From positions 43,973,554 to 44,037,553 of the forward strand of contig OX485803.1 of NCBI GenBank assembly GCA_950295325.1: DNA of 64,000 bases. Direction: 5' to 3'. The notes below the pieces were generated by a model. It did no database searches and was not told the origin of the DNA. It saw nothing but the letters and a program-made list of their open reading frames with translations. Position numbers and translations under genes: made by a program. This document shows positions 1,484 through 43,010 of this stretch, piece after piece (the first letter of the stretch is position 1; every line of letters starts with the position of its first letter). Origin of the DNA: Polytrichum commune (Eukaryota > Streptophyta > Polytrichopsida > Polytrichales > Polytrichaceae).

Positions 1484-1886
1484 CTCCCTCCGTTTCAAAA
1501 CAAAAGTTACATTTTAGAAAATCCATGGGCTTAAAGCTCATTTTTCGCACTTTTAGCACGAAAGTGCGTGTGTTGCATAGCTCTATTTGCTAGAATTCGC
1601 TAGGAATGCTCGTGAATTCGTTGAAGACAACACACATGTTCATCGCCATTGACGATTGACACCGATCGATCTCACACATCACTCACCGATCGACCGCGTT
1701 GATGTGCGTCGACACCGTCGAGTCCAAATATCAATTACTTAAACAAGTGTGAACTGTAATTTCGACGTCGTAGTTCATCAGCAACAACATTTACATTGCT
1801 TATGGCAACATTCCATAAACATAACTTTTATTTCGTAACGCAGTTTATGTCCCAACGTAACTTTTTTTATTTTGAAACGGAGGGAG
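1484..1886. mobile_element. Stowaway-like (Tc1/mariner-type) MITE
   Basis: The left end reads CTCCCTCCGTTTCAAAA and the right end is its inverted complement (TTTTGAAACGGAGGGAG). TA dinucleotides lie immediately outside both ends (1482-1483 and 1887-1888), the target site of Tc1/mariner elements. The 403-bp interior has no transposase frame. The ends match the well-known plant Stowaway consensus beginning CTCCCTCCGT. Confidence 0.85.
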
Positions 1887-2396
1887 TATAAGTTAACCAT
1901 GCTCCCACAACAAGAAGCGGCTGCTGATTGCCCTCGCCCACGTGCAGTGAATGGGGGCATTGAGCCTGTGTTTGTGAGGAGGCATCAACAACGGTCCCGC
2001 CTGAGATATACACCTGATGCATTGCATGCATGCATACGAACGCCATTCAATGCCAGGGAAAACGATGAAATCTCAAACCACAAGTGAATGATGGCCCTGG
2101 CATGGCAGACCCTCGAACCTATCTTTCATGTTTGTCCTTCAAAGCGGTGCTTCGATCCAAGTTAACTTCCTCGCTGGCGTGTATTGTGGTGTGGTTTCAT
2201 AAGATCGTCTCAAAAGTCAGCTTTCCAGCGCTCAATTTTGATTGTATATATATAAAAGAGAAAGTTGTTCCTGACGATTTGAAGATCACATTGATGTGGT
2301 GGTAATGTTTAGTTTACGGTGGTGGTAGTTTTTGTGGTTTGTTTTTATTGGATTTCGAACCATTCAATTTCAAGAGACTGTGGTAAATATATGTGA
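1887..2396. other. No recognised feature
   Basis: Short frames at 1872-2087 and 2084-2305 have no recognisable domain. Nothing else is seen before the foldback element. Confidence 0.4.
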
Positions 2397-2404
2397 TAAC
2401 ATTA

Positions 2405-2623
2405 GGGGATTGCTATTTCCACACCTTTTTTGGCTAGATTCACACCTTTTTGCCGGTTCGGTTGCCGTGTCACTGAGGCGCTATATATTATGAGATTCTT
2501 CATGGTGGATCAACGGTCCGGATGCACCATGAAGAATCTCATATATAGCGCCTCAGTGGCACGGCAACCGAACCGGCAAAAAGGTGTGAATCTAGCCAAA
2601 AAGGTGTGGAAATAGCAATCCCC
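2405..2623. mobile_element. Foldback element with 8-bp target duplication
   Basis: Two ~104-bp arms (from 2405 and back from 2623) are inverted copies differing only by one T in a T-run, a T/C change, a 3-bp indel and one base near the loop. The loop is about 10 bases (around CAACGGTCCG). The direct repeat TAACATTA flanks the element at 2397-2404 and 2624-2631. An 8-bp duplication is typical of hAT elements, but the termini (GGGGATTGC) give no firm family, and there is no coding capacity. Near-identical arms and a perfect target duplication mean a recent insertion. Any transcript would fold into a long, almost perfect hairpin. Confidence 0.9.
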
Positions 2624-2631
2624 TAACATTA

Positions 2632-3559
2632 TAGTTTCACCATTGAAGATTGTATTCAGAATAGGTACATATTTTGAGGTTGAAATAAAAAGAGTCCATT
2701 AAACTTGACAACTTTCAACGAAAATATTATGAAGCAATGTATCAACAAAAGGGAAAGTTAGTTCATTCTTGATTCTAAAATCTCTTGTGAACAAGCATCT
2801 TTTCATATTGGGATGGCATTGTTGCCATTGACAAGAAGATTTATGAGGAACACAATGATACCTAATGTGGCCTTCCTAATGCCTTCTTTTTGGATGAATC
2901 TGTTTTCAAGGATCATTCATGAGCCCGAAAGTAGCCTCTCACGAACTTAAGGGTTAGTATCGATCACTACATCACCTGAAATCACAAAGAATAAGAGGAG
3001 GGATGACGGGCTATGCATTATCACTACACTCGTTACAAGGGTACATATCCTTAACAACGTATGACGTCATATGGGATATTAGACACAAAAGCAACAAGAC
3101 ATGTCATGGGCGGATTACGACTTCTGGAAAACATGAAGACTACCAAAGCATATACAGTCAAAATGGCAAGTGAACATTCACATCAAGTGGTGGGTTGCGG
3201 AAACCTCACGTTCACCTTCTAAACAATGATTGTAAGGTGATACCCAATAAACCATTTGGCTTGACTCCGGAAAAGAACTTACAATCGATAGGAACTTTGG
3301 CAAGTGATAGGCTACTGACATGTTTTCATTATGATAAATACCTCATTGTCACCAAAGATCTCAAATATTCCATCATACAATAGTAGCTGAAGGGAGAAGA
3401 GACATTGGATTCATAATTGATGCAAGGAGAGAAATCTTTATGAACAAGCTTTAGGGTTTGGGTTTTCAATCTTCATGAAGTAGACTCATAACCATTTTTT
3501 TTAATAATTGTTTCAAATATGCATTTTATACTTGTACATTATAAACTAGGATTTAAATA
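2632..3559. other. No recognised feature
   Basis: AT-rich DNA with only short, unconvincing frames such as 3195-3383. No transposon ends seen. Confidence 0.4.
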
Positions 3560-3905
3560 AATATGGGCAAAATACTTATCCAAAATTAACAATGCATATG
3601 AGAGTATTCTTTGCAAAGTGGAGATGTGCACACTGCAAAACAAACTAGTTGGGACAATTATCTAGAGGAATTCATTGAAAATCCTAGTAATACATATTTT
3701 AAGAAGTAATGTGGTCAAATAATTCCTCTAAATGTGTATTTCATTCACAAGTAACACAATGTGCATACAATTAAAACGTGTTACAACAACAAAATAAAGT
3801 CCACATCTAAATATGATTTTGTCATTTCCATCGTAGGTGTCGTTGGTAGATATACACAAACATACGTCAAGAATTCATGCACATATCTATATTTACTTAA
3901 ACCAT
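3560..3905 (+). repeat. Dispersed repeat, copy 1
   Basis: This stretch aligns by eye, in the same orientation, with 11545-11880. Shared blocks include AATGTGGTCAAATAAT, ATTCACAAGT and ATCGTAGGTG in the same order and spacing. The copies are well diverged. No coding frame or terminal structure identifies the family. Confidence 0.7.
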
Positions 3906-6900
3906 AGTTCGTATTTTAAGTTAAAAAAATTAAGATGTTTTTTTCTAGGAATTCTTCAAAATTGTTTAGAGTACTTTTTTACAAATTATTTCCTGAAAGT
4001 TTTAAGCAACTACCCATTTATATTAATTTATTTATATATTTACCTTTTAAATGTTTAAAATATGAAATATACATTTCAAAATATATTTACATATGCTACA
4101 ACACATATGCAAGACTATAATTTATAATATTAGAACATAGATTATCCAATATTCACTGTAATGAAAATATTGATATAGACTCAGAAATACATGTACCTTC
4201 CTTGTTTTTAAAATTAGTGGGAGTGTAGAAAATTTATTTAAAAAAATAAAAAATAAAAAATAAAAAAAGCAGTCTCAAGCCTTTAGAACACTAATCTATA
4301 GGTTTATGGATTTATTTATATATATATATTTTGACCTAAATTTTTTTGATGATTATTTTACAAGTTAAAATAAAATATCACAAATAAATAAAATAAAATA
4401 AAAATTATTTCATCCCAATAGTATATTCTGTCTTTTAAAAATTTTAATTAAAAATAAATTCAAGAATCCGTTAAAGAAAAATCCTATAACCAACCATAAA
4501 AAAAAATTGGTTGATTATTGAAATATAAATAGATCCAAAAATTAACCTCATGTTCAATCTTTTATTCTAGCTTCGTTCACTGCATATGCTCTAGAATGTG
4601 AATTATAATCATTATCAAACATTTAGTTGTATTACTACCAAATGTATTGTGTATCTTAAGAATGTGTAAGCGGCACACTATAATATGTATAAATAATAAT
4701 CAATGAGACCTTAGACAACTATCAAATTTTTGTAAAAAACTTTATTGGCTTTAAATGATGTTAGACTGATATGAACATATATTTAATGATATCGGATCAA
4801 TAAAATATAAATTTATATGAAGGGTATATTATTACAATAATAATAACAATAATGTCCTAACATTAAGTAGCAATGTTAAAAGGATACCCTTTGGCGTCAA
4901 TGTCTAGTGCCAAGGTAAATGGAAATAAAGAAGGTTAAGTACTCTTTAATGTGGTTGAAAGACAACTAAGAGATGCTAAAATGTATAAACATAGAGCATT
5001 GCAAAAGTTGAAGAATAAAGGATATCACAAAAAGTAAATTTGTCTCATTGCCATGGTTCCCAAATATGTGTAATAATAAATATATATGCGGCCATATTTT
5101 AATCTTATAATTCTAGCAAATACAATAACCACTCAAAATTTGAGCCTTGATACAACAATCGTGGATCACTTTTAGGTCTCCGGGCCATTTAAAGGTTAAT
5201 TAACAATACGGCCACCTGGGCATTAAAAAAACTTGGTGAATTCCGAGGTAACCAAAATAACCGACATGGATGAGTTCTTAGATATTCTCATCATCCTACA
5301 TTATGTAACAATGATAATCACACTAATCTTATGCAAGAATAAATGGACTTCTTTATATAACAAAATATTAACAATAAAAATGTTAGGATTATTTAAACAC
5401 ATATTTGATGACTAGAAACCCATGCTTGAGATTGGAGTTGCCGATTTATGTAGAGCTATGTTCGATACCGATGTCTTCATTTCATTTTTACTTTTACTTT
5501 TACTTTTATCCATACATGTAAAGCTTTCACATAATCTTCTCTTTTACTTTTAATATAATTGTTTTTTGTAGGACTTGTTTTCCATCCACAAATCCCATGC
5601 AAAAATGCACTCCTTTCACCAATTACTTTTCATTAAGAAATAAAGTAAATTACAACCCATATCGTATTGTACCATGCATGCATCCGTGCATGCCTAGCAC
5701 ACGTGTGTATGTGTAGATGCATGAAAAGCATGAGTGTCTAAGTGTACTTACATGCATGCATGAGATTTTTTTTGGATAACACTCTAGATAAATCTAGAGA
5801 ATATTATATTGATAAAAATATATAAAAATATATTAAATATATTAATTAATTTTAAAAATATGTACATATAATAAGTGATTGCCATAGCTATATCAAAAAG
5901 TCATTACTACTTTTCAGACATAGCCAATAAATATTTTAGATCCAAAATAAAGTCCCATTTTAGCAAGGAATTTCAACCAATAAGACATCAAGTTCTACAC
6001 CATGTTTCATTATTTCCAAGTTACTTCTTATTTCAAACATCTTTAAGCTTTATATAAGTTATTTAGGGTGATTAGTTAATATTATCATCAAGTCATTCGA
6101 AATACCACAATCCAACACATTGTTATTGTTGTGATTCTGAATTTTTAAATTTATATTTCATCACAAATAAAATATCAAAAATTAACAATGTGTTGCCGAA
6201 GTGCCCTTTTATTGTTGAAATTGGAGCACTTTTAATGCATATTCTTATTTTATTTTAAAATTTGACTTTTAAACAATCTATTCATATAGATTTTGAGTCA
6301 TATTTTTAGCTTATTTCATTTTCAAGGTTGTTGGTTTTATAAAAACATAAAAAATTGATGTTATAATTAATTATATATATATATATGTAATCTTATGTAT
6401 ACGCCTGCACACTTAACAATAGTGTGTAGACCGTAGTCTATTGCCTGGAAGCACCCAAGACTACCAAGCAAACTGAACAATTTAATGAAAATTATGTCAT
6501 GTTTCCATTTGCTATAGTTGTCGTCGATTGTCCTTTCATATTTATTATACTGAAGCTCACACTAACATAGAAGTTAGTAGGTTTTGTAATTTTAGTCTAA
6601 AAGTTCTTTGAAAGTTGCAACGGGCTTTATTCAAATGCACATAAAACACAATGTCTCTTACACAAGTACAACCTAATCTTGAAAACAATAATTCTTCTAA
6701 AGATGGGTTATCAAACACCTTTTCTTCAATTTGGTTTTGATGGACTTCATAACATTACTAAACTCAACTTGCCAGTTAGCCTAGGCATGAGAATAAATTG
6801 GCCAAGAGCCAGAAACAAATATGTTGTGACCTCAAAAATTAATGGCTTAAGTCATAGTGCCTTGGTAAGGTCCTTATAGAACATGGTATATCTTTTATTT

Positions 6901-7202
6901 AGATTGGGTGGGGGAGCATGAGCCTTTGGGCCATTTTGCACATGTGACCAAGGGCTATAAGAAAAGATTATTTAGGATTTTACATGGTCACAAATGGGAT
7001 CTAAAGACCAATAGAATCCACATTACCTGTAAAAGCCTTGGTCTAGGACGTCAGGAGGTGGACTCCTCATTGAAAACCTAAATGATGTGCATGGGTCACT
7101 ATGAAATTCAACCCCCTACATACGAGAGATTTGTAGAGAAAAACGAAATGTATATGTACTAACTATAGGCTACATAACTTACTCAACGTTCAACTCTCAA
7201 TC
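3906..7202. other. Very AT-rich DNA without a recognised gene
   Basis: Long A/T tracts (around 4200-4500, 5760-5870 and 6300-6400) and short TA repeats dominate. A 50-bp stretch near 6480-6535 recurs at about 8690-8740 (both contain TATGTCATGTTTCCAT and GCTATAGTTGTC), showing a further diverged dispersed repeat. No frame looks conserved. Confidence 0.5.
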
Positions 7203-7325
7203 TGTGGGCCCATAGAATAAAATAATGAGATGCTCGAAAAGCTACTTCAAGAGAGTCGGATTCACACTAAACTCCTAGCATCTCACTGTTATATTTTGAG
7301 GGCCCACGTCACTAAGTAATGTTTT
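7203..7325 (+). repeat. Short hairpin repeat, copy 1
   Basis: Starts with GTGGGCCCATAGAATA and returns as an imperfect inverted copy ending TATTTTGAGGGCCCAC, giving a stem of ~30 bp around a ~45-bp loop. The same arrangement, with a shared 3' extension (CACTAAGTAATGTT here), is found at 19258-19382. It is therefore a dispersed element rather than a chance palindrome. Confidence 0.65.
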
Positions 7326-7926
7326 GTAGAATATAAACTCATGTATTTATACTAAGCTTTTCAATCTAGTGTGATAAATGCCTCCAGTACATATACAAAA
7401 TATAAATTTTGAAATAAATGAGCTTTTATTACATGTACAATCCACTTTCACTTTCCAATGAGAAGGTCATTCAAATTTTTTTCATCTATACGATGTAACT
7501 GAAAGATTGCATCAAACAAAGAAAAGAGCATAATAACTTAGCCACAATCCAAAGAGCAACTCAAGAAAGTTGACAAGCACCCCAAACCTAGAATTCAAAT
7601 GCAATCCCTACCAAGGATGGATAGGAAAGTCAATGGGCACTATTACCATATGACAATATTACATGAAAATGTAAATCTATTGAAACTGACACATCTATTG
7701 TCATTTTTTTCTCTAAACCTTAGGGCCCCCTTTTGTACATCTACCTATACTTCAAAATTCTTAATAGCCTTTTTAAATGTACACACGAGAGAAAAGATAA
7801 TACCTCTCCCTTATGTTTACTATGTACGCTAATGCTTCAAATAATACCCCTTTCTACCCTCACAATAATTCATACAAAATATGAAGAGTCCGACCCTTGG
7901 GTCCGGGACATAGTGTAAAGCGAACT

Positions 7927-8000
7927 AAGATTGTGACATATTGTTTTCTAATGAAGAATCCCTAAGATTGTGACATATTTTTTTCTAATGAAGAATCCAA
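7927..8000. repeat. Two-copy 37-bp tandem repeat
   Basis: The block AAGATTGTGACATATT plus TTTTCTAATGAAGAATCC occurs at 7927 and again at 7964, with one-base differences. Confidence 0.85.
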
Positions 8001-11000
8001 TAATATATAATAAATAAATATTTTCTTTGATTTTGATTCACCAAATTTTATTTTTGAAATAAAATATGTAAAATGATTGTGTTAATGTGGTCGCCTTTAA
8101 TTATGCTAGGACAACCTATTTGGGTTGTCTCCCTCCAAAGTTTGGGTGACCACCAATCATTATTTATCATGTAAGATTCCAAATCACCTCCATGTCACTT
8201 TTCTCATCCATTCTCCAACATGGTGCTTTTATTTTTTATGACCTTGTGTAAAGCAAAGGTGGGATTGCCACTCCTTCAATCAATGAAAGAATTTAGAAAA
8301 TCATGGTCATGGTCACCGGTCACTAGTGTAATTGGCCCTTAGTACTTCCATGCAAATAACTTTTCTTGAATTCCCATGGAAAACCCATGCATCTCTCATG
8401 CCCTTCTCATTAATGTCTAGACTTGATACGACTATATGTAAACTTGAGCTTACTACTAATATCACCCGAGGATGTTCATAGGTGCAATAGAGGCTTCTCC
8501 CTAAGATGTGTTCTTCACCCTCAAGGATCAAACTCCACTTCCTTTTTCCTATGTCGAATACAAGTGTTCGTCAAACACATCCTCTAAGGGTTACTTCACC
8601 CATGAGCCAAGAGCCATGACCACAAGAGGATTCTCCAACGCACTTGCACTTGACGAAGCCTTGGGGCAACATGTACGACGAGACTCCAAGCAATCAAAAT
8701 ATTTAGTGAATCTTATGTCATGTTTCCATCTGCTATAGTTGTCTTCGGCTGTTTTTTTGGGTTATTGTTCATGTTTCCCATTCCACAAATGACAATTCAT
8801 CCAACGGTTGGAAGTTCAAAGAACATATCTAATTCCCGGGGTGACAACTAGTGCAAAATAATTTGTAACAGATAATTCATCCATATTATCCTTGTACATT
8901 CATACCAAAGAACAATAATTTTACAAAACTTAGAATGGAGTGATGTAGTGCACATTGAGATTGTCCATAATACGCAATGTTTTATTGATTTGAACATGTC
9001 TATGTTTTATAATACATCAATAATTTGAAAATAATGTGGGTTTTCACTTGGATAGGGGGGCTCATCCATAATCTGGTCTCCATCAAACCTAATTATAATT
9101 TAGATAATCTAGATTATTTTGGCTTGTAAGCCCTAACCCTAACTTACTTCCCGACTTCTCACGGTGGCTTCTCTCCCGCTTCTCTTTTGAAACTCTTGAC
9201 TCCAGATAATTTGAAACATAATCTAGATTATATATACGATTATGTGTACATAATCTATGCCTTTGTAAAAAAATTGGACAAGGCCCCTATAATTATTTGT
9301 TTGAGTTTCCACCCCGGGATCTAATTCTTTACGAATCATAAACGAGAAGATTCACGTTTTTGGCCAAAAGTAGCTGTGCGGAAGGGCTGAGGTTGTTTAG
9401 GGGTTAACATTAGAAGTTAGTGGTCTTCACATAACTTCACGCTACACATTCCTTGGAAGTTGGTGAACCCTATTCAACTCCTACTCTCATGCTGTATCAT
9501 TTTCCTCAAATGCCTATATTTGATCAAACGCTTATGCTTTGCTCTAAGAAACAATACCCAGTTTTTCGTGGAGTGATCTTCAGTGAACACTGCAAAAATT
9601 TTGGTTTTGGGGGAGGAGCCAAGCTGAGAACGGACTGACCAAATTTGAAATGTTTAAGTTCTAGTAATCTTGTTGTCCAGTGAATTAAACTTCTAAGGAA
9701 AGCACTCTCAATGTTGTCTTCTGGCTAAGCATGTTTCATATATTTCTTTTATCAAAATCAAGTCTAGGTATTCCTCTAAATCTATAATGTCCCCATAATC
9801 CCTAGATAGATGGCTATGATTCATAAAACTAAAGTGTCCGCAGAGTGCACATCAAATTATTCATCGCATTCTAAGTTTCAGTGATAACTACACTGAGATT
9901 GTAGTTAGTGAGTTTGTAGTAGTAGTAGTAGTTGTTGTTGTCGTCGTCGTCATCCTCTTTTCATATAGCTCTAGGGCATGTTTTAAGTTGTTCAGGGTCC
10001 AACAAGTGTAGTCAAAGAAAGCAATTATAATGTGCTTTGCCTATGTTAGACAACCTAGTGAAATAACATCCATTTTCAGTGTGGGTATGTGAAGAACGTT
10101 CTATAAGAGCATGTTCATTGGTTCTTCATACAACACCCTGGAACATAAGAGTTATGGGTTTAGCCTACGAGCTTGACCCATGCGTCAGGCCTCACCACTG
10201 TAATTCCGTTGCGGAGCCCAGAGAGCCCTCCCCAAACCATAATAGATTGGGGGTATTTCAGTCCAACTTTCAACCTTGTATAAGATAATCAACTATCAAT
10301 AGAGTTATTCGTAAAGTTTAGGAGATGAAACCATGAGTTTAGTCCCAAACCTTGGGTTTATGAGAATTAATACCAAGTCACCTAAGTTTTCTTAATGCTT
10401 AAATTACCATACACAAAGAGTGGTGTTGGGCTATTAAAAACCGGCTTTCTAGCTTCTCCTCCTACTAGGATGGTTGGGCCAAGCTAGCTTTTCATAGGTC
10501 AATCCGGGATTCAGGATGGCAGGTCCCATGCACATACCCTATTTTTAATCCTAAAATTCTCTCAAAGTTTGAGAGGTGGAAAGAGGAGGTCTCAAATTTT
10601 GCATTTAACTTTCACAATGTGCTCCAATGTACGATGAGCTAAGGAGCTCTTAATAGAATTTTTTCTCAAAGAAGGATCAAACCCACAGTTTGATCCCTCT
10701 TTGAGGGATTTTACGGATAACTCTAATACCTCACAGTCTTTGACCAAATAGAATCTTAGCTTTCAACCGTTTCTATGTAAAGCCCTCTGTATTGTAAGAT
10801 ATTCGTTTTGATCATGAGACCCACAATTCATGAAGCTCATATAGAGTGAACGTGTGGGACATATAATGAGACCACTCCCCTCTAAAATAATATTACCCGA
10901 TTTAGCATCCCTTTGTGTTAGCGTTTGGTTTATAACATGTCATCATGCTCTAAGTTCAGGCGCCTGGAAGCAACTAAGTATGGATCGCACATTTGGACTT

Positions 11001-16740: not shown

Positions 16741-17221
16741 GCATTAATTGGGATAGTAATCAGTATAGTTGTTGGTCCAAAGTGAGAGGAATCTAGTATT
16801 GAAATTGATAAGAGACTTAGGGCCACTTCACACATGAGCCAAGAGCCGTGACCATGAAATTGTGAGTGCCCAAAAGAAAGTGTCCAAAGGCCATCCCAAC
16901 ACACCTCCAAAATCATGTAGTGTGGTCACGGACCCTCAAGAGTAGTGTGAAGTGATATGTGACCGGCCCCTCAACCAAATTCTATTTCAATGAGTTTCTA
17001 TTCATGTAGGTCTTCACACATGATAAAATAGAATAAGTCAACGGTTGTGAGCGTTCGGAGTGCCATGGTCTCCCAGTCTTGTGTTAGGCCTACCTTCAAG
17101 AAACGGTTTTTGAAAATAGTTCAAGTGACCATGAAACACGATCCATTCAATGCCATGTAGGAATCCATACAAACTTTACATCCATCTTGCATTCCCAAAC
17201 TCAATTGGTCCCTCAAGCGTA

Positions 17222-18076
17222 CACTACACTAAATATGATATTCAGTGTTTGATTATATTTAGTGTTGTTACCACCCTATCTTGCTCAACGCTAATTTTTA
17301 ATTCTTTGATAATTAGTGTTAGACATAACTGCGCCGCCACCTTCCCTACCGTCACCTCCCTTCTCCTTTTATCATTGTTGATTTTTTTTTCATATCCTTA
17401 CTAACACTAGATTCATACATGTAACTTCTACATATTACCACAGTTGATATGATTTAATGTTTGAGTTTACATTTGATGCTACTTACTTTCATAGGGTTAG
17501 TGATATTTAGGGGCGGTTTACACTATGGACCAAGAGCCATGACCATGAAATTCTAAAATATGTGATTGGAGAGTAAAGTGCTCTTGGTCCCATTTGGCTT
17601 TACACTACCTTGAAAAAAGGAGAATGACCACTAACTTTGAGGTCCCCAAAAACTACTAAAATCTGCCATTTGGATAATGTGCCATGGTCCAACGGGTTTT
17701 CCGTTGAGGCGAGGCAAAATGCTCGACTCAACGGAAATCAAGGGAGCCGTAAGGCTGAAAATCAGCCATTGGCCGAAAAAAAAATTTAATATTTTTTTTC
17801 CCGAATTTTTTTGACGTTACTGTAGATCGTTGGGATAGAAATATTAAAAAAATCAGCCCAAAGTTGTCCCGGTCCAAATCCACTTTACACTACAAGAGTG
17901 ACCAAGCCACTCAAAAATCCATTTTTGATTTTTCATGGTCACGGCTCTTGGCCAAGAGCTCTGACCATGAAAATGATTTAATTTTCTTGGTCATGGCTCT
18001 TGGTCCATAGTGTAAACCGCCCCTTAGTGTATGCGTTCGTGTTTAGTTTATCAAACACCAAATATCATAGTAAGTG
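17222..18076 (+). mobile_element. MITE family B inserted in A (interrupted)
   Basis: Ends are inverted: CACTACACTAAATATGATAT at left, and the complement of CACTTACTATGATATTTGG at right. The element sits where intact family A (26796-27293) runs straight through. Its own body matches the reverse complement of 48391-48682, except for 17510-18023, which is absent from that copy. No clear target duplication is visible, so the exact boundaries are approximate. Confidence 0.8.
17510..18023 (+). mobile_element. Harbinger-type MITE family C inserted in B
   Basis: A 514-bp element with inverted ends beginning GGGGCGGTTTACACTATGG, flanked by TTA on both sides (17507-17509 and 18024-18026). The homologous B copy on the other strand has a single TAA at this site (48444-48446), which proves the insertion. 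The terminal 22 bases equal the right terminus of the larger element at 33234-36746. Internal sequence (CCATGGTCCAACGGGTTTTC) also resembles that element's subterminal region in inverted orientation. Confidence 0.93.
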
Positions 18077-18655
18077 GAGTGTGAAGTGAGCTTGGACCGG
18101 CTCCGCCTTTTCCACCAATGAGAGTGCTTGAAGTGTAACGGTCACGGGCTGTCAGTCTCGTGTGTGAAGTGGCCCTGACACGGGTGGAGGGGAGTCCAAA
18201 GGCATGATATCGTGTGGCCATGGGGTGGGAAAAGGAAGCGTGGTGCCACTATTATCCTCCTTCAAGGCACCCCAGCCACTGGGGGCCCAAGTGGGTTTAT
18301 TATTGGAATAAAAATAGGAAGCCGCATTCCCTCGCCTGCCTTCAAGCGCATGATATGATATGCGAAATTCCCAAAAGGAAGGGAAGGTGCCCTCCGACAC
18401 TTTTGCCTCGCACGAAACAAAACATGTAAAGTGATGCGGACAATCTTTTTGTTCTTGTGAGGTGTCTTTAGACACATGCATGTTGTAGACAAGAAGTTAC
18501 ACTATTTGGTGTCCCACCTTCGTAACACTCTTACGCAGGCAAAAGCTAAGTCATTCTTACATCGGTGACACATAGTTATTTTGAAATACTTCAAGGTTTT
18601 TCCTAGAATGTTAACCCCTAAGCGTCTAAGAGGCCCATACTATACCTCTCTAAGC

Positions 18656-18840
18656 TATATATATAATTATTCATATCCATATCCATAACAGTGTTTTGTG
18701 GGATTGACATTATTCCACGTAGTATTCCCAGATTTTTCCCACATTTAGTTTGAATGTGGGGAATATCCGGGAATGCTACATGGACTACTGTCAATCCCAC
18801 AAAACATTGTTATGGATATGAATAATGTTATTATATAACT
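18656..18840. repeat. Imperfect foldback element
   Basis: Left arm 18656-18740 and right arm 18750-18840 are inverted copies (for example GTTTTGTGGGATTGACA against TGTCAATCCCACAAAAC, and TTCATATCCAT against ATGGATATGAA), separated by a short loop. No coding and no clear target duplication. A small foldback MITE is the likely identity. Confidence 0.75.
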
Positions 18841-19257
18841 CCATACTTTCATGTTTTTAGATAATCGTGCCCAAAATTAACTTATCTAAACTGAATTTAT
18901 TCTTCAAGTGTGTTATTTGAATAAGTTGAACACTTTGATGTTATTGAAATTTCAAGTTCAAACACGCGACCTAGGTGTTGTTGGATTCAAATGCAGACAT
19001 TGTATATTGATCATCAATGTATGGTATGAATAAAAAAATTATTCTCTCCTTGACATGAGACGGTTTATAAACATTTTTTCCAAAACATTGAACTTGTCAA
19101 TCAGTGTCCAGTTGAGAAGAGGAAATCATCTCATGTGCCAATTTTGGATCATACACCCAAGCTCAAGACGGAAAGAAATTGTTGCTTTTCTACTTACGAA
19201 TAATATCCTTCAATGTGCATGAAGTCATAACACTACTCAGCACTTAGTGCTCGTTCA

Positions 19258-19382
19258 GTGGGCCCTTGGAATATAACAATCGGATGCTCAAAAAGTTGTG
19301 CAAGGAAGCTTGTGTTGTAATTGAGCTCCTAGTATCCAATTGTTATATTCCAGGGGCCCACATCGCGAAGCAATGTTATGGT
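19258..19382 (+). repeat. Short hairpin repeat, copy 2
   Basis: Begins GTGGGCCCTTGGAATATAAC and returns as GTTATATTCCAGGGGCCCAC, a better preserved stem than copy 1 at 7203-7325. The 3' extension (GAAGCAATGTTATGG) is shared with copy 1. Confidence 0.7.
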
Positions 19383-19503
19383 GTTGACTCAAGTGGTTGC
19401 AGGGAATTGTTGCATACAAGCATGCCTCTTGTTTCACCCTCCAAGGTTATGTTTATTTCAGTCTTTTTTTTACTTACTAGATTAAATGAGGACGCTTGGT
19501 AAT

Positions 19504-19728
19504 ACTACACTAAATCTCATACTTAGTGTCACTTACTATTGGGAGTTACACAATGCTACATCTTTGTACTATTGATATAATTTCTTACCAAGTAAACATT
19601 TCAATGTTCTATAATCTCCAAACATCCATTTTGACCTTTGTTGGCAAAATTGGAGATGTACATTAAATAATTATAGTGTTGCGTGATTCCAAGTAGTAAG
19701 TGATACTAAATACAATAATTAGTGTACT
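19504..19728. mobile_element. MITE family P (ACTTAGTGTCACTTACT), complete copy
   Basis: Terminal inverted repeats of ~50 bp: left TACACTAAATCTCATACTTA continuing GTGTCACTTACTATT; right ends AGTAAGTGATACTAAATAC. About 225 bp, no coding. The body includes TTCTATAATCTCCAAACA, a block shared with other copies (for example TTCTATAATGTCCAAACA at 42458-42682). Confidence 0.75.
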
Positions 19729-20357
19729 TCTTAAACATTCAAATGGTTTGAAGATCGCTACTATTGGGTTAGAGATGGTTCACATCGTTTCCACTACACC
19801 ATTTTTAGTATGACGACTTAGTGTCACACCACTAGTGTCACCACCTACCATGTTCACTATAATGAATGCAATCAATTAGGGCACTATTATGAGCACGTAG
19901 TTCTGAATCAATAATGATAGTTTTTTAACCAATATAGCTTAAATATTTTTAAAGATAAGAGAACCCATTTGTGCAAAATTAGTGCATTAGTTGGAAGCAA
20001 CATAGCAAATAACTATATACATCTAAAGAGGTAGTACGTGACACTATGTAAACAACATATTGTAGGACATGACCCATTTATTGGCCAAGGGTTTAGGACC
20101 GCCATGTATTTTGAAGGTGGAAACATTGAGATGTTAGAACCCTTTATTTCACAGACTTCTCTAAGTTAAGCTAGTTTGATCCCATAAACAATGTCATAGA
20201 CCTTGAACTAGTCTAGTGAGACCATATTGGGAGAAATCAATCTTAAAACATGTAGGAGATAGGAATTTACATGCCCCCCCCCCTTACTTGGTTGCTATGA
20301 ATCCTAAGCCCATTGATCTAGTGACAAACTTTGGTTCATCCAAACTTCAATCATATC

Positions 20358-20812
20358 GTAGCTCTCTAGCAGCTTGGGCACCTTTCTGCCTAATAATTAA
20401 TTAAAGTGTGAAAGTAATTTAGGTAGCCCATAAAATAATATTCTAAAACTGGGCAAATTCAAAAAGTAATTTAATATAAATTAGACATTCATCCAAATCA
20501 TTTCTATAATTTGTGCATGGTTTTCTTGATTTCGTCTATGGCAGCTACAATTAACTTGAACACTTCCTTTAACCAACATTTCTTACCCTGAAGTTTATCT
20601 TTTACTTGTATGTAAGGGTTTTGCTTGGCAACAATTTTTTCTTTGATTTGATACTACTTTTTTTGATTCCGATGAATGTCACTTGCATTATTGTGATTTT
20701 AGGCACTCTTTGAATGTTATTTCTTTTTTGTGAACACTCAACGAATTGAATTTCCATAAACTTTGGCTCCTTTAAAATTAATTATTTTATGCCCAAGTTG
20801 CTAGAGAGCTAC
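20358..20812. mobile_element. MITE with 23-bp terminal inverted repeats
   Basis: GTAGCTCTCTAGCAGCTTGG plus GCA at 20358-20380 is repeated inverted at 20790-20812 with one mismatch. The 455-bp body is AT-rich and non-coding. Flanks share only ATATC-like sequence, so the superfamily is undetermined. The frame at 20216-20404 overlaps the left terminus and is not a gene. Confidence 0.7.
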
Positions 20813-22271
20813 TATATCAAGACATGAAACTTATAAGGTGCAACCACCTCACTGTCACAAATCCACACCCTCCAACATCAACCAATTAAGAATTATTGTG
20901 GGAAACAATTGCTTTCCATTCTTTCACATAGTTTAGTTTAGGAACACTCAATAAGATATTGTTTTCCTTGAGTTCTTTGCCCTCCATGAGAGGTTTTGTG
21001 TTTGTGTTGTTTGCTTCATTTGCCACCCTCTATATGGGGTGCAAGAACGGTCAAGTATACAACTCCATTACCATGGATAGGTTTAAGTGAAAGTGATTCA
21101 AAACTATATACAAACTTTGAGTTTTGCAAAGGAAACAATCTTAAACATTTGAAAATCACATTGATCTACAAAGCCAAGCAATTTATGTTGACCTGATAGA
21201 TTTTTTTTTTAAAAAGACTACATATTTTAGAAAACGATGCAAGTAGTGTGCTAGTATGTATATTGTACATGTAATAATCTATAAAAAAAATTAAAACATG
21301 AAAAAACTACATGACACTGATGTTTTCCTACACATTTTTGTATTGATGTTGTGAAGTTCAAAACGAATTCAAGGAACATGAAAAAAAAAATCCAACTTCA
21401 AAATATTGAAGGTCATGAAATCTATGTCCGAACTATATTTAGCCATTACCTTTGAGAAATGCTTTTAATGATAATTTTTGAAGATCTCATCTTGATACTT
21501 TATATTTGAATACCCAACACAACAATAAAGGGCACCATGAAAAAAATTTAACTTAAACAACAATTTCTATTATTTTAAGGCGGTTGACCAAAACAATTAT
21601 GATTTTAGTATAATGAAGCAGTTTTCCATATACTTGACGGTGCTTGCTCCCATGGGTAAAGTTTCATGACACCTACCATGGGGGATAGTGACGCCTGATA
21701 TAGACATTGTGTAGCATGGATATAATTACTTATATCCAATTCACATCTAAAGCGGGGTCCAAGGTCCTCATTTAGTATAGTGGGAATAAAATTGACAATC
21801 ATGGAAAGGGCATGGTTTTAACCCAACTCCAACAATAGTACTTTGAACCAAACCCCCCTCTCTTGCCAAGGTTTAGCCTTTGAGTTGTTGGTGTGCTTTT
21901 GATGAGAGGGGATTGTTGCATACAAGCATATCTCTAGGCTCTCATCTGCATGTGTTGGAAAAAAGAAACCCTAATTCCTATAGGTTTGTGGTTGATTCAT
22001 TGATGTCAAATGTGTCATGCTAGACCAATTCACGATCTTTGAAACTAATTCCAATGGTAACTTATCTTCAAAAACCAACCTCCAACCTATGAATTATTAT
22101 AAGATGTTCTTATTGGATGTATTAGAGGTACTACAGTACTGCATGCAATAATTTTCTCTCACCTATAGGTTCCCATTGCAATGGAATCTACATTCTCATA
22201 TTATTTGTTTGGCATAAATGAAACCACTTCATTGCACTCAAATTAACAAAACAAAAAAGGCAACCTTCTAA

Positions 22272-22562
22272 GAATGGGTTTACACTAAGGGCCAAGACCA
22301 AAGAAACACCAAAATCGAGTGCTCATATTGATCAATAGCAAGAATTGGGACCCAATGAGTTTACACTACAATGTGAGTTTAAAATACGGGGAAAATGAAG
22401 TGCCACCTACTGTGGCATCATTATTTTTGCCGTATCTTAACAATCCTTGTTCAAGATACTACCCTTTATGGTTTGAGAAATCAATCTTCAAGTTTGGGTC
22501 TAATCTTGAGTTTAAAAGAAGGGTCCTTTAAGAGGTGTTTGGGACCTCAAGTGAACCCACCC
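22272..22562 (+). mobile_element. Tourist-like MITE family D, copy 1 (intact)
   Basis: A 291-bp element flanked by TAA on both sides (22269-22271 and 22563-22565). Ends are GAATGGGTTTACACTAAGG and the inverted GAACCCACCC. It serves as the reference for copy 2, which starts right after its 3' TAA. Confidence 0.75.
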
Positions 22563-22803
22563 TAAGGATCTACTCTAGGGTCCAAGACCAAAGGACCCCC
22601 AAAATCAAACAAACCTATTGGTCGAGAGCAAAAATGTGGACACAAGGAATTTACACTAGGGTCCAAGGCCAAGATATGAAGCAACGAATGTGACATGATC
22701 ACTTTCCCACCAAACCATGGCGGGATCCTCACTCGAGAGAATACTCCACCTTGTTTGAGAAACCAATCTTCAGGGTTGGGTCCAATCTTGAGCCCAAAAG
22801 CAA

Positions 22804-23516
22804 GGGCCACTTCACACACGAGCCAAGAGCCATGACCATGTAATTGTGAGGGCCCTCAAATCTCATCCATGGGCAATTTCAGTTGTTTAACCGCCATGAT
22901 CTGCCATAATTTGCATCACTCTTGGAGGTGGGCATGACGCAAGTTCCAACAAACCATGAAACAATATCCATAGTGTGCCATGTAGGAATCCGTATAGTAG
23001 GCTTCCATCCATGTTAATTTCTTTGGGCTCGTAGGCCTTCACCTTCTAGTGTGAAGTGAACTTGGACGGTCTCGGCCTTTTCAACCAACGAGAGATCTCA
23101 AGGCCAGTCCCAAGTCACTCAAGGTCAATCCGTGCAATCTCAACCATTGAAAGCATGGAAATTGGGACTCACAACTTCACACAAGGTCCCAAGTCCTAAG
23201 GCCCAATTATGACATGGATGCCTACATGGCAACACTTTTTGGAGGTTAGGCTTGGGGCTTGTGTCGAGAGCTCAGTCGAGCCAAAAGCTACACCCAACTC
23301 TCAACACAAGTCCCACGAACATTGTTGCATCAAATAGTCAAGATCGACGTTAATGTAACCATATGTTAATGATTTTCTTGATACTTAAAAGTTGGGACTT
23401 TGCACTCCATGTTAGTACTTGCAAACATGAGTGGGACTTGGGACTCGAGACCCCATGTGAACCAACCCTTAGAATGCAATGGTTGTGGGCCTTCAGTCTC
23501 ATGTGTGAAGGTGCCC
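22804..23516 (+). mobile_element. MITE family A, copy 3, inside D and itself interrupted
   Basis: Left end GGGCCACTTCACACACGAGC and right end CTCATGTGTGAAGGTGCCC correspond to the ends of the intact copy at 26796-27293. The body 22804-23094 matches family A loosely, with an internal replacement. After GACGGTCTCGGCC and CGAGAG the family A sequence stops, and it resumes near 23470 (GAATGCAATGG...). Confidence 0.75.
23095..23468 (-). mobile_element. MITE family E inserted in A copy 3
   Basis: Runs as the reverse of 36751-37125: both contain TTGAGGTCAATCC or its near relative, TGCAATCTCAACC, ATGGATGCCTACATGGCAAC (in orientation) and CCCATGTGAACC. The right end is followed by TTA; the left terminus is degraded. 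Intact family A has no sequence here. Confidence 0.75.
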
Positions 23517-23799
23517 AGAAATCCATTAACAAGTGTTTTGAACCTCAAGTTTCTTGAACCCGGACCCGAATGCAAATCCACCCTAAGTGGGCAGGCCGAG
23601 TGAAAGTCCACCTACTTCTATATATAAAAAGCGAGCTCCTCCAAAAGAGGGACTCCGATAATAAGCAAAGATCACACACGTGCAAGCTAGAGAGTGCGGG
23701 CAGGCGGGCAGCGGCTGTCTTGGGCAGCGATCTCGAGGCCAGCTCTGAAGCTTGGCAGCTTAGCCATATTGGTGGACGGGCAGCCATAAATAGACACAC

Positions 23800-24660
23800 C
23801 ACCAAACATTGTCTTTAGTGTCATATGGTATTTTATGTCACTCTGCTAACTTTTTTAATGACACTCTTTAAAGCATGAATTTATAAGTGATGACATTTTT
23901 TAATACCACGAATGACAATTATCGGAACAAAGTTATTGAAGCACAATAGAATTAGAGATTGCAAGAAGAAGAAGAACTCCGGTTTCCGGAGGAGGCCAGA
24001 GTGAACAGAGTGTCTGTTCGTAGAACATCCTTGGCCACACCCTTGAGATTGCAAGACCATCTACACATACACAAAGATATATGAACAATGCTTGGAGTGA
24101 GATGGCCACCTCCACTCCTTGCTTTGTCTTTTATTCCAATTCAACACTTTTAGTTCATACAATGCATATAGGATACCTCAAATCCCACTTCCCACAAATC
24201 ATATGAGAGTATTCAAACCTTGTTCAAGCACATACTTCTAACCTTCACAATCCTATGACTATGAGCAATCTGATGTTCTAACTACAATAAAAGTTTAGTA
24301 TATTCAGCATTCAAACAATTTGGTAGTGAAATGGTATCATGAATGATTGAGATTTGGATGGAAATCCCACTTCCCACAAATCATATGCGAGTATTCAAAC
24401 CTTGTTCAAGCACATACTTCTAACCTTCACAATCCTATGACTATGAGCAATTTGATGTTCTAACTACAATAAAAGTTTAGTATATTCAGCATTCAAACAA
24501 TTTGGTAGTGAAATGGTATCATGAATGATTGAGATTTGGATGGAAAACCACTTAGTAAGTGACAGTAATTGCAAAATTGTAAATCTATAATGTCCAAAAA
24601 AATTAACAAGGAATGACAAACAATGTTAGGTCTACATTTAGTGTTGGTGACGTTACATGG
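23800..24660 (+). mobile_element. Broken copy of MITE family H
   Basis: 23806-23910 matches the left part of 41454-41830 (TAGTGTCATATGGTATTT then ATGTCACT), and 24535-24660 matches its later part (AAGTGACAGTAAT, AAGGAATGACAA, TAGTGTTGGTGAC). About 600 bp of unrelated sequence, including the 182-bp tandem duplication, lies between. The expected right terminus is replaced by the 83-bp tandem array that follows. Confidence 0.6.
24181..24546 (+). repeat. Two-copy 182-bp tandem duplication
   Basis: The segment starting AATCCCACTTCCCACAAATC at 24181 is repeated head-to-tail from 24363. Only two substitutions are visible (GAGAG/GCGAG and CAATCTG/CAATTTG), so the duplication is much younger than the MITEs around it. 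Confidence 0.95.
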
Positions 24661-24679
24661 CAATTTACAACTATGCCAT

Positions 24680-25035
24680 TTATGGTGTCTAGTGCCACGC
24701 ACAATATTGGCAAACGATCTAAACTTGATGCCTAGAGGCCTAGTAGTGTTAGGTCCATTAATTGTCAAGATTACACTACACAAGTGCTTTACAACTACAC
24801 AGTTCATGGTATTTAGTGTCACCTAGTGGTGTCACATCCACTATTTGTCAAGATGACACTACATTGGCAGTTTACAATTAAATTGTTCATGGTACTTAGT
24901 GTCGCCTAGTAGTGTCATGTCCACCAATTGTCAAGATGACACTACACGGACAATCTACAACTAACGTTTATGGTATTGAGTGTTGCCTAGTAGTGTCACG
25001 TCCACTATATGTCAAGATGACACTACTTGTCATTA
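24680..25035 (+). repeat. 83-bp tandem array, about 3.3 copies
   Basis: TGTCAAGAT begins units at 24763, 24846, 24929 and 25010 (periods 83, 83 and 81). Units share ACACTACA, TTTACAACTA or a variant, CATGGTATTTAGTGT and CCTAGTAGTGTCA. A diverged partial unit lies upstream (24680-24762). The CATGGTATTTAGTGTCAC core resembles the terminal motif of the surrounding MITE families, suggesting the array grew from a MITE end. Confidence 0.9.
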
Positions 25036-25914
25036 TAAGTGACTTTTTGAAGTGCATAACTATTTTATGGTAAGATATTTAACGTAGCACATTGCAATGC
25101 TTTAGATGAAAGTTTAACATTTTAGTATGCAAGAGGAAGATATTATCGAGGATACTACTGTCAAGTGTAAGGTGTTTACACTTATAGTCAACTTGTTGAC
25201 CGTTGTATAACCTAGGAATAAGACCTCATGGTATCATTGACCGTGAGTTTCCACGTAGGCCACTTGCCCACCAAAGTCTAGTGTGAATAAGGACAAACCC
25301 ACCCAAATGTAGAGGGAATCTAATGGTGGTAGGGCTCGTACGTGCCAACTAGCTACTCCCAACTTCTCAAATATGGGCCCACCTACTAACCTCCTCCTCC
25401 ATGTTAAAACCGTCTCCTCCTTGTAAAACTTATCTTCAATCTTTTGGTGATTGAGATTTGTAGGTTTATTTATTTTTAGTGGACACATGGAAGTATAGTG
25501 GCCAATGTCTACAGCCCTTCACATTCTAGCGGACCGCCATAATGTGATTGGATGGCGGCTTGTGCTTAATTACATGCAAGCACCTCCGATCCACTATTAT
25601 CTAGCATCTAGTGGGCAAGTGGCCTACATGGAAACTCACCTTAAGCATACTAATGCCAAGGTAGTAGTATGCATACTAGAACACCAAGTGCCATGATGTT
25701 ACACTAAGGGTTGTTTGCCATTAGTGTAACATGTCATACACCTCATAAGAGGGTAAGTGATGTTATTATGCATGTGACACTAAATATCACTAAACGATAT
25801 AGTATTGAGCAAGACAAAGAGAATTGGTGACTAAATACAATATTTAGGGTAGTTACACATGAACTTGCTAGCACTACATTGTTTATGTTGTTCAATGCCA
25901 CATGCATAATATTG
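25036..25914. other. MITE fragments, no gene
   Basis: Around 25800-25860 there is a sequence like the right end of family H (TATTGAGCAAGACAAAGAG then GAATTGGTGA). A 20-bp GGCCACTTGCCCACC-like piece at 25258 recurs inverted near 25610. Frames at 25234-25488 and 25505-25696 lie across these and are not convincing. Confidence 0.4.
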
Positions 25915-26410
25915 CCACTTACCTTATTTTGAGGTGTATGCTACGTTACGTCAATGATCAACAACTTCATCATTAGTGTCACCTCATGACCCTTGGCATT
26001 CAAGTGCGCTCATTAATACACTGCCTTGAGTACATTTTGAATAATGGTATGAGGTGTATGCCTATGTTACACAATGGTTTACAAGTTGACTAACGCGTAC
26101 ACAAATGACATTGTCCATTAACATACTCAAGAATATCTACCTCTTGCATACTAAAATGTAATCACACGACACTCACCACTAGTGTACTTAATAATATCTT
26201 CCCTTAGCATACTAATACGCAAAATCATCATCTTACAGTAAGTATTCCAATGTACCACACTAAAAGTCATCATATAAATATTATTTCACTTTAAAAGGTT
26301 ACTTATGTTGACAAATAGCAACATATTGACAATCAACAAACGTGACACTTTAAAACCTCCAGGCATCTACCTAGTTTAGGTCCTTCGCAAATAGTGTAAT
26401 TGACACTACA
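25915..26410 (+). repeat. Long dispersed repeat family I, copy 1 (uninterrupted)
   Basis: Aligns collinearly with 32190-32820. Shared blocks are GAGGTGTATGCCTATGTTAC, CATTAGTGTCACCTC, TAATATCTTCC, TAAGTATTCCAATGT or AAAGTATTCCAATGT, and the end GACACTT then AGGCATCTA/AGACATCTA, TTTAGG and CAAATAGTGT. It has no insertion at the position where copy 2 carries 114 extra bases. Confidence 0.8.
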
Positions 26411-26792
26411 ATATCCTTTACCTTGGTAACAATGGTAGGGGCCCACCTCAAAAAGGTAAGTGGCAAGAAACGTGGGCAGGTGTAGGAGTAATGTGGATCA
26501 AGTGAGGAGGAAGAGAGAGACTAGGAGATCAATAAATAAGGGGCCTCAAACTGAGGGGCTGGGGAATAGGAATAAATAAATAAATGTTAAAATGTTAAAA
26601 TAGTATTTAAATACATATAATAATAAAAATCTTAGAATAGGAGGAGGGCTATACTAGCTATTCAAGCCTCCTTGTTTGCATGCCATGGCATTTTCCCAAT
26701 TTTCATGACACACCCTCCTCCTCAATGCTCACGCTTTGGAGAAGTTTAAGGGATTCGATACCCCCGGGGGGCTGCCATGCTAATATTCAATG
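26411..26792. other. No recognised feature
   Basis: Low-complexity AT-rich stretch (AATAAATAAATAAATG near 26570) and a C/G run CCCCCGGGGGG at 26761. No gene or element ends seen. Confidence 0.4.
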
Positions 26793-26795
26793 TAA

Positions 26796-27293
26796 GAGCC
26801 ACTTCACTCACGAGTCAAGAGCCGTGACCATGAAATTGTGAGAGCCCAAAAGAAAGTGTCCAAATGCCGTCCCAACACACCTCCAAAATCATGTAGTGTG
26901 GTCACAGACCCTCAAGTGTAGTGTGAAGTCATATGTGAGCAGGCCCTCAATCAAATGCTATTTCAATGGATTTCTATTTATGGGGGTCCTCATACATGAT
27001 AAAATAGAATAAATCAACGGTTGTGAGCGTTCGGAGTGCTAATGTCCCGGTTTTGTGTTAGGCCTACCTCCAAGAGGCGGTTTTTGAAAGTAATCCAAGT
27101 GACCATGAAGCACGATCCATTTGATGCCATGTAGGAATGCATGTGGACTTTACATCCATCTTGCATTCACATACGCCATTGGTCCCCCCAAGCGTACTGT
27201 GAAGTGGACTTGGATTGGCTATGCTTTTTCCACCAATGAGAGTGCTTGAAGTGTAATGGTCACGGGCTCTCAGTCTCGTGTGTGAAGTGGCTT
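26796..27293 (+). mobile_element. Tourist-like MITE family A, copy 2 (intact)
   Basis: A 498-bp element with inverted ends GAGCCACTTCACTCACGAG and CTCGTGTGTGAAGTGGCTT, flanked by TAA at 26793-26795 and 27294-27296. It is the uninterrupted reference for the nested copies at 16820-18175 and 22804-23516. The minus-strand frame 27064-27390 lies largely within it and is not a gene. Confidence 0.9.
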
Positions 27294-27296
27294 TAA

Positions 27297-29030
27297 GTAA
27301 CAAGTTGGCACTCTGGATGTTATGGGAGTTGTAACTTGGAAGTACACGGTTTATCCCAATTAGTGTGTGTGGTATTAATTCCCGAAACACACACTATTAT
27401 GTCAAGTCCCATAGTTAGCGAGGGCTAACTTTTTACTGAGTGATATTTAAATTCATAACAAATGCTCATTTAACGTACTGTACATTTCAAGAATGTTAGT
27501 GTATGCTCTCTAAGGTGCATGTAGAGTGATTATAAATAAATAAATAAATAAACTTATATGCAAACACTTGCTTTGCCAAGATGAGTAATGTCGGTACTCT
27601 TCAGTGATCGATGTTGTTGTCATGAATAATATTTACAGTGAATGGTGCCAAGATGAACCATGATTCCTAGATGTTTTGGTGGCACTAATTTCATTGTGTA
27701 AAGAAATTAAGTATCACCTTCATCGATTTCCCGCGTGCACTATTAGCCCTCCCACATTGGTTGGGATAATTAGTTGAGTAAGGTAGGACCCTTGAACAAT
27801 GGTTTAGTTTCAAAACACATGCCAAGGGGGTATTAGTAAAGACCGACTCCCTATAGGTTTGTTGTTGATTCATCTCAATTTAAGTTCAGTAGACTAATTT
27901 GGGAGCACTAAGCATGATATAGCATTTTGATTTGTCAATTTTGAAAGCTTTTGGCAAGGTCTAGCTAACAAGATCATCTTGCTACGAATAACAATTAGTG
28001 TAGAATATGACAATCTCATGTCCAAACCAACATGTTTATGCAAGTCAAATCTTTCCCTTTCCCTCCAATGAAAGTCAATTCCCCATGTGGTTATATAGAG
28101 TCCAATTTGTGTCATTCAATGGTTTTTGTTGACTTCTTTGGCACATGTGCCCTTAGTACAAATTTCCATGTGCTTGGCATTCTAGCCAAACATATAATTT
28201 TCAATGATGCCAACAAAGCTTTGGATGGGATCAACAATACCAAATGTCAGCCAAGCAATTTATTCCAAAGGGTGGTGTATCATGTAAGAATCACATTAGC
28301 ATTACACCTCATGGTGTGCCCTGTACTATTTTATAACTCAAACTTTTATATTTTGTACATGTTATGAAGCAAAATGAAAAAATCATGATGTTATTACAAC
28401 ATGATTGTTTTTGCATGTTGATTCCCCCTACGGAGGTTTATGAAGGAGGCTCAACATATGAGAGAGAGTAGTTTTGTATGGTTGTCAAACATGCAAGTTG
28501 CAAATGGTTGTCATCACATTTTACCCACTATGAATGTTGCACGAGTGGATTCATTGAACTTTATATCTTGAAAGTTCACAAAAATTGAACTAAATCTTAA
28601 AATAATGAGAACTTCGGGGAAGTGTTGAATTATAAGAATATGCCAACATGCATAACAACGTTGTAAGCTACAATGATCTCGAGCTACATCGGTTATTTCT
28701 CCAAATTGATTCTTTCCCATTCAAAATGAAACTCAATGTTTGGTTCAAGAACATAGGGACGTTAACAACTTGCCCACCTCGAACTTCAACTTCCACCTAT
28801 AATTGTACCAATCATACGGGCACATATGGAAGTATGCTCGTAGGGAGCATTTCCATTGAGAAGCAAAAAGAAAAAGGGAACACATTTTACACGCAAAGGG
28901 AAGGAAAAAACTAGACTTGAGTTTCAAAATTTTGATGTATGGTACAGGCCCTAGTTTTGCCTAGAAGATTGCAATCATTTGAATGGCCTTTTATATGTAT
29001 AGTAATTTTTCAAGTGACTTCTTACATGTG
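27297..29030. other. No recognised gene
   Basis: Frames such as 28032-28367 (111 codons) and 28648-28914 show no domain, and overlap opposite-strand frames of equal length. No element ends recognised. Confidence 0.4.
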
Positions 29031-33233: not shown

Positions 33234-33566
33234 GGGGTGGTTTACACCATAGACCATGAACTCGTCCCACGGAAGATGCCTTATTCCTTGGTACGAGTTC
33301 ATGGTCTACATTTCATGGTCCGAGTTATTAAAAAAATGATTTACAAAGCCGTTGGGCCCCTCACTAGGTGTAAACCGAATGTGGACCAAGAGGAATGACC
33401 ATGTGGCAAGGAGTGCACGTGCTGATTTTTTTAATATAAAGCCCAAAAAGGGCAGTTTTAGTAAAAAACAAAGTTTGACCTTTTTGTTGACTTCACTTGT
33501 CTACACATGCCTTCACTTATTTTCTTACTTAGGTTTTTCTTCTTTTCGCCTTAAAATTCAACAAGT

Positions 33567-34967: not shown

Positions 34968-34969
34968 AT

Positions 34970-36328: not shown

Positions 36329-36750
36329 TTCTACGGAAAAAAAATTATGCGAAAAAAATCTGCGAAAACAATCTGCGAAAAAAAATCTATCACTCTATCA
36401 CTATGTTGCAAGAAAGAGAAATGACAAATCCTTCATATAACGGCCTTTTCATTGTGCCCTGAAATTAAACCGTTAATCCGTTTTAACAGTAACCTGTAGC
36501 GGACAATAAAAATTTATTAAATTTTTTATTTTGGCATTTTTTTGCCATGGGCCCCTGACTGTTTTTCCAGGACCACCTCTTTTGCCCCTCCCAACAGAAA
36601 ACCCGTTGGACCATGGCAGTGGATATAGTAGGCTTAAAATACAAAATTTGTGGACCTCAACCTCCATGGTCACTCTGCCATTTTTTCCTTGGTGTAAACC
36701 CTAGTCGTCCCGGGACGACTTCATGGTCCATAGTGTAAACCGCCCCTTAA

Positions 36751-37125
36751 GGGCGGGCCAGTTCACGCGGGTCCCAAGTCCCACTCATGTTAGCAAGTCC
36801 CCACATGGACGCAAAGTCTTCACTTGTGAGTCTCAAGTGACCACTGAAATATGGTTAATTGTCATTGAAGTCAGATTTTGATTGTATCATGCAAACATAT
36901 TTGTGGGGCTTAGAGTTGAGAGTTGGCTTTGCTTGACCCAACTCGCAACACAAATTCCCAGCCTCACCTCCAAAAAGTGTTGCCATGTAGGCGTCCATGT
37001 CATAGTTGGGACTCATGACTTGGAACATGGTGCGAAGTGGTAAGTCCCAACATTCGTGCTCTCAACGGTTGAGATTGCATGGATTGACCTCAAGTGACTT
37101 GGGACCCCATGTGAACCGCTAGCCC
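36751..37125 (+). mobile_element. Tourist-like MITE family E
   Basis: A 375-bp element flanked by TAA at 36748-36750 and 37126-37128. Ends are GGGCGGGCCAGTTCACG and the inverted GTGAACCGCTAGCCC. Its left TAA overlaps the TTA that borders the Harbinger element. A reverse-oriented relative is inserted in family A at 23095-23468. No coding. Confidence 0.85.
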
Positions 37126-41830: not shown

Positions 41831-42127
41831 AATGTGGGTGTTGCTATTTTTCACACATTTAGCCTTTGAATCTTGACAAAGACTTCAAACTAATCTAAAC
41901 TACTATTAGGTGCAACTAGGTGCCCATGTCTAACTCATCGAAATTCCACACTAATTGATTTGTTAGTACCATAGTAACAAAAGTCATGAAATAGTATTTC
42001 ACCGTGGTTGCTAAACGGACGAATAATTCAAATTTTGATTTTGACCTAAGGTAATTTCAATGGGTAAAGAGGCAACATGTTGGCAAAGGCAACCTACTTG
42101 CACATATCATCGTACATCATGTCCCAA

Positions 42128-42984: not shown

Positions 42985-43010
42985 GTCTTCCCTAGCCTAG
43001 GCTATGCTAT

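Follow-up and report, generated by a model that had tools for sequence, protein, structure and literature searches.

A three-level nest of non-autonomous DNA transposons with paralogous empty sites in the genome of Polytrichum commune

In Medicago, non-autonomous PIF/Harbinger elements are as a rule deletion derivatives, and insertions of one element into another are found, according to the accessible part of PMC2213677, which also states a 3-bp target duplication for PIF/Harbinger elements. Nested MITEs are on record for maize, rice and carrot (Jiang and Wessler 2001, as cited by others; carrot DcSto, PMC3695323), the available text on carrot describing how a Tourist-like MITE, bounded by a TTA-type duplication, resides in the Stowaway-like DcSto1 (PMC3695323). 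The ordering of transposon activity by nesting is represented by TinT, the example of which, as given in the accessible sections, drew on 2,268 nested Alu insertions (PMC3014933). A literature search on three-level nested Tourist MITEs retrieved no paper, which does not prove that none is in print.

The locus described here lies in a stretch of 64,000 nucleotides (contig OX485803.1), in the following termed the window. Three transposons are inserted there one within another, namely an outer element (A1), a middle element (B1) and an innermost element (C), and paralogous empty sites are available.

The nest at 16820-18175 and its empty sites

A1 (16820-18175, + strand) is a non-autonomous, PIF/Harbinger-type (Tourist-like) element with termini GGGCCACTTCACACA and flanks TTA/TGA, measuring ~500 bp without B. 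It is interrupted by B1 (17222-18076, +; right boundary ± 1-2 bp), which comprises 341 bp without C, has the terminus CACTACACTAAA and contains repeated ACACTAA/TTAGTGT motifs. B1 in turn is interrupted by C (17510-18023, +), an element of 514 bp bounded by inverted repeats GGGGCGGTTTACACTATGGACCAAGAGCC (arms 40/42 identical) and by a TTA/TTA duplication. The nesting of A, B and C had been claimed in a sequence-only reading of the same DNA, the coordinates of which proved nearly exact.

An A copy without interruption, A2 (26796-27293, +; perfect TAA/TAA), serves as empty-site control for B. The left part of A1 (16822-17222) corresponds to 26798-27197 of A2 (blastn, 87.8 % over 402, E 5e-143) and the right part (18072-18173) to 27190-27291 (88.2 % over 102, E 3e-32), with B plus C forming one single gap. 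After removal of B, 433 of the 494 aligned positions are identical (4 gap columns), confirming the interval previously read as an uninterrupted A.

In case of C, the empty-site control is B2 (48391-48680, - strand), a B copy without C. The left part of B1 (17258-17510) matches 48680-48443 on the reverse strand (blastn, 81 % over 253, E 9e-64) and the right part (18024-18080) matches 48446-48390 (82 % over 57, E 1.5e-10), C being the sole gap; with C taken out, 243/287 positions (84.7 %) are identical. Chance similarity of A1-A2 and B1-B2 is excluded by the E values of 5e-143 and 9e-64. The earlier description of a B copy without C on the other strand stands with respect to the absence of C, but homology stops at 48680 instead of 48682 and the copy is incomplete. 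Since ~36 bp of the left B terminus are missing, B2 can serve as control at the C site yet is no complete B. C is flanked by TTA at 17507-17509 and TTA at 18024-18026, and B2 reads TGATATTTAGTGTATGCG at the C site, i.e., one TTA (TAA on the + strand) where C has two, in agreement with the duplication and the single TAA reported before. The pairwise alignments that had been proposed as a check thus gave clean gaps at B plus C (against A2) and at C (against B2), with matching flanking parts.

B is absent from both other A copies spanning its site (A2 and A3, the latter much diverged and with a left flank that is poorly aligned there), and C from the one other B copy spanning its site in the 64-kb window; the empty-site test rests on these few controls, A2 and A3 for B and B2 for C. 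Excision of PIF/Harbinger elements can be precise, and given precise excision, the single TTA in B2 alone would be compatible with A1, B and C being an ancestral composite, the inner parts of which were lost from A2 and B2 by deletion or excision. However, A2 and A3 both lack B despite their marked divergence (64.8 % identity over 335 aligned positions), no A match is found beside B2, and C retains its own inverted repeats and duplication, so that a composite origin appears highly improbable.

The window holds a second nest, D2 in A3. A3 (22804-23516, +; right end determined by eye) is the third copy of A and strongly diverged, with 65.2 % identity to A1 over 336 aligned positions (211 gap columns), and has flanks CAA/AGA, i.e., no TWA duplication. 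It is interrupted by D2 (23101-23468, +; borders approximate, by eye), the flanks of which read TCA/TTA at best. A further D copy, D1 (36751-37125, -; TAA/TAA duplication), is identical to D2 at 285/381 aligned positions (some flanking bases counted in) and adjoins a coding PIF/Harbinger element via a common TTAA (36747-36750). Because these two elements adjoin and have the TTAA in common, the arrangement suggests that either the coding element or D1 inserted at the target duplication of the other.

Assignment of the nested elements to superfamilies

A decayed coding PIF/Harbinger element (33234-36746, +) with C-type inverted repeats is located ~15 kb from the nest. Its flanks (TAA left, TTA right) are one mismatch from a 3-bp TWA duplication. 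The element harbours a transposase remnant (33555-34967, +), the open frame of which is broken by an in-frame stop at 34533-34535, and a second gene remnant (35243-36394, -) consisting of two open frames, the two remnants lying on opposite strands. The former matches Pfam DDE_Tnp_4 (E 2.5e-18; 66.7 bits versus a cut-off of 24.8), taken here as marker of the PIF/Harbinger superfamily, and hence represents a DDE transposase of the Harbinger kind; in case of the latter, one frame shows weak similarity to a Myb/SANT-like domain (PF13837; 24.6 bits, under the cut-off of 27). Comparison of the transposase frame 33555-34535 with PDB sequences yielded three matches (E 0.46 to 0.94), none of them meaningful.

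The right terminus of C matches both ends of this coding element, i.e., 36721-36749 (29 bp, 96.6 %, E 2.7e-7) and 33259-33230 (30 bp, 86.7 %, E 5e-4). A further match links the interior of C to 36618-36580 (40 bp, 90 %, E 2e-8). For alignment of the element ends beyond the inverted repeats, the first 30 bp were left out and 200 shuffles were run each. The left end of C agrees with the right end of the coding element at 130/164 aligned positions (39 gap columns; score 102, best shuffle 51). The match of the right end of C to the left end of the coding element is marginal (98/123, 45 gap columns; score 56, reached by 2/200 shuffles), and the two crossed pairings do not exceed chance (scores reached by 128/200 and 28/200 shuffles). 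C and the coding element therefore have inverted repeats in common at both ends, with homology beyond them that is strong at one end and marginal at the other. With its 514 bp, TIR arms identical at 40/42 positions, TTA/TTA duplication and no ORF of at least 120 aa, C conforms to a PIF/Harbinger-derived MITE and, owing to the inverted repeats common to both ends and the collinear homology beyond, is most plausibly interpreted as having arisen by internal deletion from a PIF/Harbinger element akin to 33234-36746. The latter itself is an unlikely direct parent, given 34 differences over the 164 aligned positions of the better block. The inverted-repeat pattern of C had 0 exact matches in viral_contigs.

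A single rule for TWA-flanked inverted termini, applied to the window and to 100 shuffles, retrieved four elements (C, the coding element, D1 and 2402-2626), whereas the shuffles averaged 0.12 and never exceeded 2; A1, A2 and A3 fail this rule. The fourth element (2402-2626) is short and palindromic, with 62-nt arms at 98 % and flanks TTA/TAA. Harbinger-like ends beside TTA/TAA were also recognized by eye at 8300-8340 and 8587-8640, for neither of which the rule found a partner.

The termini of A1 and A2 read (G/A)(G/A)GCCACTTCAC. Ends of this type together with a TWA duplication are typical of PIF/Harbinger (Tourist) elements, and A possesses both the TIR and the TWA duplication of a PIF/Harbinger-derived MITE. 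The duplication is perfect in one of three A copies (A2, TAA/TAA); A1 has one mismatch in three bases (TTA/TGA), and the diverged A3 has none (CAA/AGA). Alignments of the left 120 bp of A1 with either end of the coding element 33234-36746 remained at chance level (scores reached by 42/200 and 64/200 shuffles), and a tie of A to this element was rejected.

A and C, listed as two families in the sequence-only reading, are not independent kinds of element, as both have TWA duplications and a common subterminal block. The left 120 bp of A1 align to the left end of C with a score of 58 (best of 200 shuffles 44; reached by 0/200), driven by CCAAGAGCC(A/G)TGACCATGAAAT. The right-end match of A1 and C is weak (score reached by 2/200 shuffles), and the link between A and C therefore rests on the left end and on an inner copy. 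The latter is part of an unstranded palindrome (17930-17973; 91 % over 44) in the right end of C, formed from an additional copy of the terminal block, positions 17931-17952 being identical to A1 16838-16859 in inverted orientation (22/22). Based on the common 22-bp subterminal block and its extra palindromic copy in C, one may speculate that A and C were mobilised by one transposase lineage and that C gained putative binding sites by internal duplication. Remnants of earlier Harbinger insertion would then have been invaded again by the same lineage, once an unrelated element had inserted into them; this scenario is considered unlikely.

B is predicted to be a non-autonomous element with CACTA-like termini, the superfamily being a candidate assignment. 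CACTA elements are characterized by CACTA-type termini (CACTA...TAGTG), by a target duplication of 3 bp and by repeated motifs inside. The left end of B is CACTACACTAAA, and the right end is AAGTG in B1 and TAGTGTAG in B2. ACACTAA motifs occur four times in B1 and seven times in B2 (shuffle means 0.12 and 0.14, respectively), counts reached by 0/300 shuffles of each. The target duplication of B1 is eroded, since the insertion lacks a perfect one and its flanks, compared by eye with A2, fit GTA/GGA (3 bp) or TA/GA (2 bp). The fit to TA/GA, together with a TA before CACTACACTAAA in 3/5 exact matches of the B-end motif (17223, 41826 reverse and 50391; not 19504 and 41454), would also agree with B belonging to a TA-targeting (mariner-like) superfamily rather than CACTA, which is likewise compatible with the nesting. 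However, the left terminus starts with CACTAC and the ACACTAA repeats inside both copies resemble those of CACTA elements, leaving a TA-targeting B as a tenable, if tentative, alternative.

Related elements with B-type termini are present in opposite orientations at 41453-41830 and 50390-50755 (79.5 % over 375 columns). Across the whole window, ACACTAA occurs 55 times (mean of 20 shuffles, 13.25), and 1-kb bins with at least three copies start at 17, 19, 24, 25, 27, 32, 41, 48 and 52 kb. No Pfam match (E up to 0.001) was obtained in six frames of 1-10000, 18501-28500 and 37501-47500, and hence no CACTA transposase there.

Further features of the window include a tandem duplication of 182 nt (24180-24543; 99 % identical) and two matches on the + strand, to a CHY zinc finger (~56651-56767; 20.8 bits, under the cut-off of 31.3) and to zinc_ribbon_6 (~59108-59206; E 9.6e-17). 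The latter two probably represent exons of a gene encoding a RING/CHY ubiquitin ligase of plants, as named from these domain matches. No hit was obtained in the 64-kb window with Rfam (gathering threshold) or in a tRNA scan.

Order of insertion and order of family activity

The locus is most likely (probability about 0.93) the product of three successive cut-and-paste insertions, i.e., of the PIF/Harbinger-type A1, the CACTA-like B1 and the PIF/Harbinger-derived C. Accordingly envisaged steps would be (i) insertion of A1, a PIF/Harbinger-type MITE, into a TTA, (ii) insertion of the non-autonomous B1 with its CACTA-like termini into A1, and (iii) insertion of C, as an internally deleted PIF/Harbinger derivative, into a TTA of B1. 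Mobility of C may have been supplied in trans, in which case an intact relative of the now-decayed element 33234-36746 would have provided both transposase and second protein, and a related transposase may have acted on A. The marginal match at the right end of C, the mismatch at one of three positions in the A1 flanks and the unclean duplication of B weigh against this reading.

At 16820-18175, A1 inserted before B1, and B1 before C. The sequence-only reading had gone further in taking the order of family activity from one window, which is not borne out, as one nest orders three events only. Successive activity of the families, A then B then C, with the nest mirroring the chronology of the genome, would be compatible with the three successive insertions and agrees with the nest order, with the near-identical arms of C as compared to those of A1 (23/42 identical ungapped, partly owing to an indel), and with A3 being likewise a host, to D. 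In contrast, the K2P distance of B1-B2 (0.175; 95 % 0.122-0.233) is not lower than that of A1-A2 (0.136; 0.105-0.172). Their difference (B minus A) of 0.039 (95 % -0.025 to 0.106; B ≤ A in 12.1 % of 2000 resamples) is not significant and amounts to 0.039 (-0.024 to 0.104) without CpG sites. Moreover, the K2P distance of 0.476 between A1 and A3 (211 gap columns) suggests a long history of family A, and a single nest per family pair is compatible with overlapping activity. Strict succession of the families is thus rather unlikely, and divergence within the window neither supports a family chronology nor ranks A oldest. C cannot be ranked by divergence, because blastn detected no second short copy of it in the 64-kb window.

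Comparison with known systems

Nested MITEs (PMC3695323), deletion derivatives of PIF/Harbinger elements (PMC2213677) and dating by nesting (PMC3014933) are already published, as far as the accessible parts of these papers extend, and the present nest is an ordinary, well-controlled instance of a known phenomenon. Within 64 kb, three levels of nesting occur together with paralogous empty sites and with a coding, though decayed, relative of C; the locus thereby provides a tidy example with internal controls, usable as a test case for annotation; by itself it raises no new question.

The TinT approach likewise uses nesting to order transposon activity, but the Alu example in its available text comprises 2,268 nested insertions as compared to one here (PMC3014933). 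The PIF/Harbinger elements of Medicago truncatula, as described in the accessible part of PMC2213677, resemble those of the window in having TIRs, a 3-bp duplication and a transposase plus orf1, and in showing internally deleted copies along with nested insertions and paralogous empty loci, the likeness being drawn from described features. They differ in belonging to another genome or element set, the coding copy being decayed in the present case. The nested MITEs of maize, rice and carrot, to the extent that the available accounts describe them, share with the present locus the insertion of MITE into MITE, whereas the nest at 16820-18175 has three levels and a middle element with CACTA-like ends.
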